Positions 11,518 to 43,434 of a stretch of DNA of 55,297 bases are shown here, piece by piece. Source of the stretch: Candidatus Parcubacteria bacterium (GTDB lineage Bacteria > Patescibacteriota > Saccharimonadia > Saccharimonadales > 2-12-FULL-41-12); contig JAHWKM010000007.1 in assembly GCA_019347895.1 (NCBI GenBank), forward strand, positions 1 to 55,297. Reading direction: 5' to 3'. The notes under the pieces are model-generated. The model made no database searches. It had not been told where the DNA came from and worked only from the letters and a program-made list of their open reading frames with translations. A program made the translations under genes and the position numbers. Within the stretch, counting starts at the first letter, position 1; every line of letters starts with the position of its first letter.

Positions 11518-11695
11518 TGGTGGGCGAGAAAGGACTTGGTCACATCCCGCTACCCCGAAACTACATCTTTCAAAACAAGTTTTGAAGAGTAGGTTTCCTT
11601 GCGAACTGCCACCGGCAGTTCTCACCTTCACGGCCCGTGAAGTTTCAAGGCTTGCCTAGCATTGAAAAAGCCTGGCTCCAGCCAGACATTTACAA
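11518..11695. repeat. Duplicated tRNA-Leu 3' end followed by a hairpin array
   Basis: Bases 11518-11538 are an exact 21-nt copy of the 3' end of the neighbouring tRNA-Leu (11696-11716, CCA end plus acceptor strand and part of the T arm), in the same orientation. Between the two copies are several short perfect inverted repeats: TTCAAAAC/GTTTTGAA near 11572, GAACTGCC/GGCAGTTC near 11603, CTTCACG/CGTGAAG near 11627 and a GCCTGGCT/AGCCAGAC-type pair near 11671. No gene is visible. The layout resembles the attachment-site duplication left by elements that integrate into tRNA 3' ends. Confidence 0.7.
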
Positions 11696-11782
11696 TGGTG
11701 GGCGAGAAAGGACTTGAACCTTCACGGGTTTTACCCCACTAGTTCCTAAGACTAGCGTGTCTACCAATTCCACCACTCGCCC
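11696..11782 (-). tRNA. tRNA-Leu (anticodon UAG)
   Basis: 87 nt including an encoded CCA. Acceptor stem GGGCGAG/CTCGCCC pairs perfectly, the discriminator base is A, a long variable arm marks a class II tRNA, and the anticodon loop CUUAGGA gives UAG for CUN codons. It is transcribed on the minus strand; its 3' end is duplicated downstream. Confidence 0.95.
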
Positions 11783-41000: not shown

Positions 41001-41433
41001 CGTATATCGTATTACGTATTAAGTATTACCGGGTCTCCTCGCTGCGCTTTTTATTAAACCGTTAGTCATTTTTTGGATCTCAATCACTTTGTCCTCTATT
41101 AATTTTAGCTCTTTTTGCGGTAAAAAACCAAGGTCGCAGGCAATATAGCTATGGCTTAACGTTTCTGTTAGCGAACCCAGAGCAATACTATAAAATTGGA
41201 TTTTATCTTTATCGCTATTTCTAGAGAAACCTTCAGCGATATTAGCGGGTACAGAAACCGCGGAACGCCTGATCTGTGATGTCAATCCAAATTTTTCCTC
41301 GCCGGGAAAGCTTTGGGTTATCTTATATGTGTATACAGCCAAAATCCTGGAAGCTTGCCAAGCACGCAATTGCGTAAATGAGGTAATTTTTTCTGAAGCC
41401 ACTGCTTTATACGTAATACTTATACGTTATACG
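41001..41433. mobile_element. S23 cassette bounded by imperfect terminal inverted repeats
   Basis: The left end (41001-41029) contains CGTATTACGTATTAAG followed by TATTAC; the reverse complement of the right end (41408-41433) reads CGTATAACGTATAAG then TATTAC, so the two ends are near-identical inverted repeats of ~21-22 bp. The cassette carries only the four-helix-bundle gene, whose stop lies inside the left repeat, and it fills the lemA-htpX spacer almost exactly. There is no transposase, so mobilisation in trans would be required; mobility is inferred. Confidence 0.6.
41019..41402 (-). CDS. Four-helix bundle protein (S23 / 23S rRNA intervening-sequence type)
   Basis: 127 aa. Family features: LRAWQASRILAVYTYKI at the start, LTSQIRRSAVSVPANIAEGF, and LGSLTETLSHSYIACDLGFL. 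These proteins form pentameric or similar helical bundles (related to Avd of diversity-generating retroelements) and were first found in 23S rRNA intervening sequences; their function is unclear. The start is a GTG (41402) with no strong ribosome-binding site. The gene is enclosed by inverted repeats between lemA and htpX. Confidence 0.9.
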   Translation of the reverse strand: MASEKITSFTQLRAWQASRILAVYTYKITQSFPGEEKFGLTSQIRRSAVSVPANIAEGFSRNSDKDKIQFYSIALGSLTETLSHSYIACDLGFLPQKELKLIEDKVIEIQKMTNGLIKSAARRPGNT

Positions 41434-42139: not shown

Positions 42140-42679
42140 TTATTTTGTTAAGTTCAAAAACTCTTCGCGGGTTCTTAGATCACTTAAAAATATTCCTCTC
42201 ATGGCCGATGTTACCATGGTGGAATTTTGTTTTTCTACGCCGCGCATCATCATGCAAAAATGCTCAGCCTCTATTATGGCTGCGACGCCTTTTGGTTTGA
42301 CCTTTTCTTGCAGGGCATCGACTATCTGGCTGGTCAGTCGTTCCTGAACCTGAAGGCGGCGGGCAAACATGTCGGCTACCCGGGCAATTTTGGACAGACC
42401 GATAATGTGCTTGTCCGGTATATAGCCAATATGCGCCTTGCCGACAAACGGCAGCAAATGATGTTCGCAAAGACTGTAAATTTTTATATCTTTTACCAGC
42501 ACCATTTCGTTATAATTTTCTTTATATATCGCCCCGTTGACTACTTCGTCGATATTGGTATTGTAGCCGGCGGTTAAAAATTTGAGTGATTTTTCAACCC
42601 TGTCGGGAGTACCTTGCAGCCCGGCCCGGCTAGGATCTTCGCCAAGTTCTTGTAAAATTTTCCTGACTTCGTCTTTCAT
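42140..42679 (-). CDS. folE: GTP cyclohydrolase I
   Basis: 179 aa. First enzyme of tetrahydrofolate/pterin synthesis, converting GTP to dihydroneopterin triphosphate. Zinc ligands are visible: Cys and His in YSLCEHHLLPFVGKAHIGY, and the second Cys in EAEHFCMMMRGVEKQ. The GLSKIARVADMFARRLQVQE stretch is canonical. It overlaps folB by 4 nt, making a two-gene pterin operon. Confidence 0.97.
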   Translation of the reverse strand: MKDEVRKILQELGEDPSRAGLQGTPDRVEKSLKFLTAGYNTNIDEVVNGAIYKENYNEMVLVKDIKIYSLCEHHLLPFVGKAHIGYIPDKHIIGLSKIARVADMFARRLQVQERLTSQIVDALQEKVKPKGVAAIIEAEHFCMMMRGVEKQNSTMVTSAMRGIFLSDLRTREEFLNLTK

Positions 42680-43044
42680 TCCAAATTCCCTCTTATGGTA
42701 TATTCAGCTGTTACATCTTCTACCAGCAAGGATTTTGCAGCCGCCGGTTTGTGGACTACGATTCTCAGCCCGCTCACTTTGCCGAGCGAATATATTTTTT
42801 TGGCTATCGAATAGGCCATAGTTTCTATCAGCTTGAATTTTTTTTGCTCCACGACCCGCCTGACAAGCTCGCTAATTTGCCGGTAATCCTGTGTACTGCC
42901 TATATCATCATTACTAACCTCAGCCACAAGCTCAACGTCAATATAAAAAGTCTGCGGCCTGTCCTGCTCGCCGTCGTTTACGCCGTGATGGCCGATTGCC
43001 TTTATACCGGTAAGTTTAATCTTAGATTTAATTTCAGCCTCCAT
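42676..43044 (-). CDS. folB: Dihydroneopterin aldolase / epimerase
   Basis: 122 aa. Family features: KLTGIKAIGHHGVNDGEQDR near the start (normally ...GxHGVxxxE), DVELVAEVSNDDIGSTQDYR, and the C-terminal SGLRIVVHKPAA. It catalyses the step after folE and dephosphorylation. Its start lies 4 nt from a partial copy of the tRNA-Leu 3' end, so the gene may be read from a transcript that also carries the two upstream tRNAs. Confidence 0.93.
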   Translation of the reverse strand: MEAEIKSKIKLTGIKAIGHHGVNDGEQDRPQTFYIDVELVAEVSNDDIGSTQDYRQISELVRRVVEQKKFKLIETMAYSIAKKIYSLGKVSGLRIVVHKPAAAKSLLVEDVTAEYTIRGNLE

Positions 43045-43048
43045 TAAC

Positions 43049-43248
43049 TGGTGGGCGAGAAATTCGCCCGCATACTAGCCATTTCTTTATGGTGGGCGAG
43101 GAGGGACTCGCCTCGCTAGGAAAAAGAAACTTACTTTTTCTAATGCGACCCCAAAGGCCTTTGGCCTTTCTGGGGCAAGGGTCGGGGAATGCACATTTGG
43201 CATTCCCGTTCGAGTCCTCTTAAGCCAATTATAAAGAAAAGTCTAGCA
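43049..43248. repeat. Partial tRNA-Leu duplications and hairpins
   Basis: The 3' end of the adjacent tRNA-Leu(UAA) recurs at 43090-43110 (21 nt) and in shorter form at 43049-43060 (12 nt). A perfect 40-bp direct repeat (43071-43110 and 43249-43288) includes flanking sequence before the tRNA end. Between them are an AGGAAAAAG/CTTTTTCT hairpin near 43118, a CCCCAAAGGCC/GGCCTTTCTGGGG hairpin near 43150, GGGAATGC/GCATTCCC at 43185-43207, and an inverted T-arm-like segment (GTTCGAGTCC near 43208). No gene is present. Confidence 0.8.
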
Positions 43249-43267
43249 CATACTAGCCATTTCTTTA

Positions 43268-43356
43268 TGGTGGGCGAGGAGGGACTCGAACCCTCAAGGC
43301 TTATTCAGCCAACGGATTTTAAGTCCGTCGCGTATACCAAGTTCCGCCACTCGCCC
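43268..43356 (-). tRNA. tRNA-Leu (anticodon UAA)
   Basis: 89 nt including an encoded CCA. GGGCGAG/CTCGCCC acceptor stem, long class II variable arm, anticodon loop CUUAAAA giving UAA. Transcribed on the minus strand, 4 nt after tRNA-Cys. Confidence 0.95.
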
Positions 43357-43360
43357 AATT

Positions 43361-43434
43361 TGGAGGCGTCGACCAGAATCGAACTGGCATAAAAGGTTTT
43401 GCAGACCTCTGCGTAACCACTCCGCCACGACGCC
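43361..43434 (-). tRNA. tRNA-Cys (anticodon GCA)
   Basis: 74 nt including an encoded CCA. GGCGUCG/CGACGCC acceptor stem, anticodon loop CUGCAAA giving GCA, and U as discriminator base, the known cysteine identity element. Confidence 0.95.

Follow-up and report, generated by a model that had tools for sequence, protein, structure and literature searches.

The region between tRNA-Leu(UAA) and folB is likely a small non-coding cassette lodged at the 3' end of the tRNA gene and a member of a family of tRNA-end cassettes in the Saccharibacteria, and the same principle likely built the gene arrays found behind tRNA-Lys. We analysed a 55,297-nucleotide stretch of DNA (the window) from a genome of 907 kb in 27 contigs (the source genome, G000) and compared it with related genomes. 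The relatives are metagenome-assembled genomes, one per species and some of them incomplete; the searches were filtered and the open reading frame (ORF) calls were automatic.

The unit at tRNA-Leu(UAA) and its palindromic core

An earlier note on this DNA had reported three copies of the tRNA 3' end in one orientation (at 43049, 43090 and 43268), and the window sequence bears this out, with all three on the minus strand (Table 1). The perfect 40-bp direct repeat reaching outside the tRNA, also described there, was recovered at 43071-43110 and 43249-43288 with a spacing of 178. In each copy, 21 nt (43090-43110 and 43268-43288) are the 3' end of tRNA-Leu(UAA), CGAGTCCCTCCTCGCCCACCA on the minus strand, and the remaining 19 nt, which lie outside the tRNA, are the first half of its own terminator hairpin. 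Because the 40-bp repeat is perfect, chance can be excluded. Repeat copy 2 is the displaced former 3' end of tRNA-Leu. Between the first two repeat copies lies a conserved palindromic core, which we call A (43104-43217). The hairpins of this spacer, noted earlier as hairpin-rich non-coding DNA, are real, but that description missed that the spacer is itself a conserved element with a copy elsewhere in the genome: positions 43100-43187 recur with 89% identity at G000:C21:54657-54744. The second copy sits among serial tRNA-Lys(UUU) 3'-end copies that adjoin the intact gene, and a RibD_C/DHFR-like gene lies there between two such 3'-end copies. In a first scan of the relatives, the A block was likewise found beside other tRNAs.

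Table 1. Features of the two tRNA-Leu units of the window and of the genes around them
Feature	Position	Strand	Evidence or remark
Intact tRNA-Leu(UAA)	43268-43356	-	ARAGORN; Rfam 59.2 bits; last 21 nt (43268-43288) are repeat copy 1
tRNA-Cys	43361-43434	-	ARAGORN
Terminator-like hairpin from the tRNA CCA end	43231-43267 (arms 43253-43267 and 43231-43246)	-	read from the sequence
L2, segment between terminator and R2; corresponds to an imperfect inversion of the acceptor 3' strand of the tRNA	43221-43230	-	permutation test
R2, GGACTCGAAC, exact inverse of the T-loop/T-stem GTTCGAGTCC of tRNA-Leu(UAA)	43208-43217	-	
Type-A core, three hairpins (GGGAATGC.../GCCCCAG.../AGAAAAAG...), AGG end just before R3	43111-43207	-	folds, covariation, model R1 109.4 bits
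Repeat copy 2: R3 (CGAGTCC), acceptor end, CCA, first terminator half	43071-43110	-	
Repeat copy 3, 11-nt remnant of the tRNA-Leu 3' end, CTCGCCCACCA	43049-43059	-	4 bp before the folB ATG
folB	42676-43044	-	TIGR00525, 72.8 bits, just above the 72.15 cut-off; starts right after copy 3
folE	42140-42679	-	4-nt overlap with folB; in the window and in G001 it stands between the tRNA element and lemA
tRNA-Leu(UAG) gene	11696-11782		
Unit at tRNA-Leu(UAG)	11518-11716	-	3' end 11696-11716, terminator, type-B core GTGAGAACTGCC 11614-11625, displaced 3' end 11518-11538, spacing 178 bp

Seven copies of A fold alike, with a 7-bp closing stem (R2 GGACTCG with R3 CGAGTCC), AAC, three hairpins and AGG, and 16 of the 37 core pairs show compensatory changes, altered on both sides. 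A direct copy of the neighbouring tRNA's 3' end begins with R3, R2 is the inverse of that tRNA's T-loop/T-stem, and at nearly all A elements a terminator hairpin stands at the CCA end in an identical layout 3' of the tRNA. A covariance model of the core (R1) matched at 57 places (E ≤ 1e-4), spread over 25 of the 119 relatives, a lower bound since the search was filtered; 13 R1 matches are in G042. Of 333 genomes sampled evenly across the phylum, only three match, one of them from outside the order. No Rfam family was detected at the cores. The pattern TCGAACGGGANTGCCNNNNGGC had only chance matches in viral contigs, in coding DNA, and a pattern scan of genome contigs returned 11 matches, of which that in a Saccharibacteria genome of the same genus is relevant and the rest were taken as chance by organism alone. 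The 178-bp unit itself recurs, with its conserved core, behind 17 kinds of tRNA in 25 genomes, and this speaks against the suggestions that the intervening DNA is too short for an element and that it could be the scar of repeated excision. Behind tRNA-Leu(CAA) at one locus (L090, G072:C26), an A unit seems to occur twice in a row; the two versions are nearly identical and a stretch of N separates them.

We examined 52 A matches for their position relative to tRNA genes. Thirty-five start 43-58 nt 3' of a same-strand tRNA, with 17 anticodons represented, and at most of the others further elements, genes or a contig end lie in between. The arms match the tRNA next to which they stand. R2 agrees with its own tRNA at 6.49 of 7 positions (5.78 with permuted tRNAs), R3 at 6.74 of 7 (permuted 6.00) and the acceptor copy at 11.1 of 14 (permuted 7.4); in each of these three comparisons, none of 2000 permutations reached the observed value. 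The agreement of L2 with the inverse of its own tRNA is weakly above chance (5.46 of 14, permuted 4.82; 4 of 2000 permutations). Unusual T-arms, such as GGACTTG, GGATTTG, GGAATCG and GGAGTCG, are also mirrored in the arms, and in most cases the junction falls at a constant point of the T-loop (TT/CGARTCC).

The second unit of the window, at tRNA-Leu(UAG), shares the 178-bp spacing of the tRNA-Leu(UAA) unit. Its core, type B (GTGAGAANTGCC-NGGTGGCANTTCGCAAGGNAACC...), is unlike A in sequence and has the same layout. It recurs in this layout behind tRNA-Arg(UCU), behind both tRNA-Lys genes and, in relatives, behind Val and Tyr tRNAs. Truncated tRNA-Ser and tRNA-Glu copies of the source genome also have B cores, placed in their T-loop, and related inserts are found in D-loops, so the arm loops of tRNAs seem to be insertion points; truncated copies with core inserts always stand beside the intact gene. 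Two further loci of this genome (L056 8258-8930, on G000:C27; L058 1281-1450, on G000:C20) hold truncated tRNA-Glu and tRNA-Ser copies with sets of hairpins in the D-loop and T-loop, directly upstream of the intact genes. At a third (L003 10938-11095, on G000:C21), a pseudo-copy of tRNA-Lys(UUU), lying upstream of the intact gene, is interrupted by several separate palindromic hairpins. Among the relatives, tRNA-Leu(UAA) 3'-end copies at L053 (G010), L035 (G032) and L047 (G015) have other, unrelated cores between inverted and direct arms, which suggests that there are more core types than A and B.

We compared the tRNA-Leu/tRNA-Cys region in the loci of 19 relatives, fetched by similarity. In G005 (same family), G045 and G049, lemA directly follows tRNA-Leu and the site is empty, and in G032, G015 and G010 displaced 3' ends are present at the tRNA-Leu locus. 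Occupied and empty versions of the site in related genomes support the earlier proposal that tRNA 3' ends serve as attachment or insertion sites. The order in the window is tRNA-Leu, A core, 3'-end copies, folB, folE, lemA, and in G001 (same genus) it is tRNA-Leu, degenerate A core, folE, lemA, with folB absent between the element and folE. The folB gene, perhaps with folE, may be cargo; given the 4-nt overlap of the two genes, a loss of folB in G001 is equally possible. Because a degenerate element is kept at the same tRNA in G001, the window's tRNA-Leu(UAA) unit may be old and immobile. Beside lemA, a 127-aa ORF on the minus strand (41019-41402) resembles, by eye, the four-helix-bundle proteins that are often inserted in 23S rRNA genes.

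Gene cassettes and oriented arrays at tRNA-Lys

Several units carry genes between the tRNA and the core: a HAD hydrolase at tRNA-Gln of G071, RibD_C at tRNA-Lys(UUU) of the source genome, and ORFs at tRNA-Glu of the source genome and tRNA-Tyr of G077. At tRNA-Lys(CUU) of the source genome and of G042, several short genes follow that point away from the tRNA, and type B or A elements stand together with gene cassettes within one array. The cassette boundaries have AGTTGCRATARCGTCTACGRT-GGCCCTCCA in common, with the tRNA-Lys 3' end represented by (T)GGCCCTCCA. Many cassettes begin with a hairpin/T-run, followed by a promoter-like TTGTTATAAT before the ATG, and the cassettes appear to carry their own promoters.

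Across the genomes, matches to a simple left-arm pattern, AGTTGCRRTARCG, were only modestly above the reversed control, and clustered matches led to the arrays. A sequence model of the Lys site (A3, R2) was built from 20 sites of nine genomes; the training sites of model R2 had first been noticed by eye. At E ≤ 5e-4, 124 sites were listed, 95 of them in 31 clusters from 28 genomes. Neighbouring sites are on one strand in all 64 pairs (64/64) and have a median spacing of 951 bp. At a loose cut-off, Lys sites occur in 64 of 119 genomes. Where a same-strand tRNA was in reach upstream of the first site, it was tRNA-Lys(CUU) in 16 genomes, tRNA-Lys(UUU) in two and another tRNA in none. A sample of 287 genomes from across the phylum has the site in this order only, apart from one genome of the same class, and viral contigs gave no match to it.

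The array of G013 has at least 22 sites behind tRNA-Lys(CUU), a site consensus of its own (AGTTGCGATAAGCATCACYRTGGCCCTCCA) and ORFs that run 23 vs 4 in one direction. Its cargo includes NUDIX, EamA, radical SAM and epimerase proteins and many unknown proteins; that of G116 includes type II toxin-antitoxin genes, with PIN/RHH, YafQ-like and Phd-YoeB pairs. The tRNA-Lys(CUU) cassette array of G013 spans 20 kb (L260, G013:C15:11000-30990) and has many genes of unknown family, among which new small functional genes might be found.

The A/B cores and the Lys arrays may be linked, as they occur in the same arrays and have tRNA 3' ends as borders. We note that this is the weakest joint of the argument: the sites of the Lys gene cassettes lack the T-arm part of R3, so A elements and gene arrays may depend on different enzymes.

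Proposed mechanism and alternative explanations

A unit consists of a tRNA 3'-end copy with its own terminator and a palindromic core, followed by the displaced old 3' end. Since the unit brings its own tRNA 3' end and stops at the old one, insertion would rebuild the tRNA and push the previous end away. We infer that the units are mobile, through circular intermediates and site-specific recombination; in the genomes compared, one per species, neither a recombination event nor a circular form nor polymorphism within a species came to light. A cassette circle with a tRNA 3'-end copy would recombine with the tRNA gene inside the shared end; the exchange would be conservative, would take place where the tRNA 3' end and the cassette are identical, and would be carried out by a recombinase acting in trans. 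The tRNA would be rebuilt, and the displaced old end would become the border of the next unit. For the tRNA-Lys 3' end and the cassette site, the putative exchange sequence is TGGCCCTCCA. The palindromic cores hold the place that the arm AGTTGCRATARCG has in gene cassettes.

An integrase matching the repeat, which the earlier note had proposed to look for, did not emerge: none specific for the site was found, none is encoded in the units read, and none is among the ORFs around tRNA-Lys of G013, G035 and G116. Most relatives have a single tyrosine recombinase (PF00589 protein), and some carry extra integrases; G042, with 13 cores, has no second PF00589 protein. The recombinase of the source genome (G000:C1:36209-36736) is XerA-like (NF040815, 239.2 vs a cut-off of 220), and with the integron integrase model TIGR02249 the PF00589 protein of this genome scores 140.8, below the cut-off of 265. 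In roughly half of the G013 sites, the right arm (CTTATGC) is similar to a Xer half-site. A dif-like search (GCATAA-N5-8-TTATGYTWA) had matches in only 10 of 61 genomes, so the partial sharing of a Xer half-site stays a hint. The nearly universal XerA-like recombinase is the leading candidate for the acting enzyme, a role that we assign to it tentatively. A more far-reaching reading is possible, if rather doubtful: Saccharibacteria would capture genes by a general system with tRNA genes, and tRNA-Lys(CUU) in particular, as the platform for integron-like arrays and small palindromic cassettes, and this housekeeping recombinase would run it in place of a dedicated integron integrase.

Replication slippage, or fold-back at the terminator hairpin, could instead have copied the tRNA end with the terminator, followed by growth of the spacer hairpins, with no recombinase at work. 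Such tandem duplication explains the half terminator inside the window's 40-bp repeat as easily, and it suits the repetition of the whole terminator at tRNA-Leu(CAA) of G107 and G072, the terminator-to-R2 stretch at tRNA-Ser of G079, which matches the inverted tRNA end perfectly, and the presence of type-B cores and extra hairpins inside pseudo-tRNA copies. We nevertheless consider it unlikely. One core recurs at 17 tRNA kinds and in many families, genes lie inside units, and the oriented Lys arrays need gene capture. Distal 3'-end copies often have a terminator unrelated to the proximal one (G042 Ala and Arg, G032 Val, G070 Gln), and displacement by an incoming unit therefore fits better than simple duplication.

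The duplicated tRNA 3' end is also the classic mark of an integrative element, and the extra integrases of some relatives would agree with a decayed prophage, plasmid or integrative element that had tRNA-Leu as its attB. This origin is very improbable, however, for units of 178 bp with a defined core and no phage or conjugation genes; the same core stands at many different tRNAs, and core-rich G042 (13 matches) has one tyrosine recombinase only.

A third account concerns the molecule in which the core is folded. Among the pairs of model R1, G-U (37) and A-C (43) are equally rare and G-U is not preferred, whereas 161 tRNAs from the same loci have 63 G-U vs 1 A-C in acceptor stems and 55 vs 0 in T-stems; misalignment could add noise to the core counts but not erase a tRNA-like excess. 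As the core stems show no G-U preference, the structure was probably kept as a DNA palindrome rather than as RNA. The pairs are not conserved with G-U tolerance on one strand, as those of structured RNAs of the same genomes are, which disfavours the processed RNA that the earlier note had named as a refutation of its own reading. That the core is a non-coding RNA with a structure, or a signal for tRNA processing, conserved 3' of tRNA genes is the least probable account of all, given these counts, the absence of an Rfam match and the patchy occurrence at a given tRNA, despite the strong covariation, the constant distance from the tRNA and the location on the transcription side of the terminator.

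Comparison with known systems

The genomes of Saccharibacteria, which are ultra-small bacteria and mostly episymbiotic, measure about 1 Mb, and little is understood of how genes enter them. If our reading of the region as a tRNA-end cassette holds, the tRNA-Lys arrays would let these bacteria capture genes much as integrons do but with no integron integrase, by a route that is common in one order. They would make it testable how site-specific capture works without a dedicated integrase and would provide a simple marker for recently acquired genes in Saccharibacteria genomes. The system is widespread in Saccharibacteria and apparently undescribed: in the open-access literature, with preprints and subscription journals outside the search, we found nothing on integrons or tRNA-anchored cassette arrays in Saccharibacteria or Patescibacteria.

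The arrays resemble integrons and CALINs in their oriented one- or two-gene cassettes, a repeated site homogenised within the genome, and a content of toxin-antitoxin and many unknown genes. The tandem array of single genes in one orientation that is expected of an integron is present (64 of 64 pairs, median 951 bp). However, the anchor is a tRNA-Lys gene, whereas in integrons it is attI beside intI, and no intI gene was found next to the platform among the ORFs read and the PF00589 proteins. The Lys site contains the tRNA 3' end and has no recognisable GTTRRRY/RYYYAAC pair, the cassettes appear to carry their own promoters, and no integron integrase was found. Compared with attC, a folded hairpin with R and L boxes, the A cores do fold, but their arms derive from the tRNA T-arm and not from RYYYAAC/GTTRRRY; an attC-like fold of the Lys cassette sites was no better than that of shuffles (z -0.9 to -1.5).

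Elements that integrate at tRNA genes (by phage-type integrases, integrative and conjugative elements, islands and tandem accretion) likewise duplicate the 3' end at both ends, restore the tRNA and form tandem units, and we found the tRNA 3'-end direct repeat at both ends of the insert together with an intact tRNA. The units differ in having no integrase and a length of 0.2-1 kb, and in a palindromic core whose arms are inverted and direct T-arm copies. The tycheposons of Prochlorococcus are small cargo elements that use tRNA 3' ends; they are larger than the units described here and encode recombinases, a comparison made by description and not by sequence. REP and MITE palindromes are similarly short, non-coding, hairpin-forming and dispersed, whereas the arms described here follow the neighbouring tRNA and their position relative to it is fixed. 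With neither an integron integrase nor attC sites nor an integrase encoded in its units, the system is integron-like in its cassette logic and corresponds to tRNA-site integration in its choice of target.
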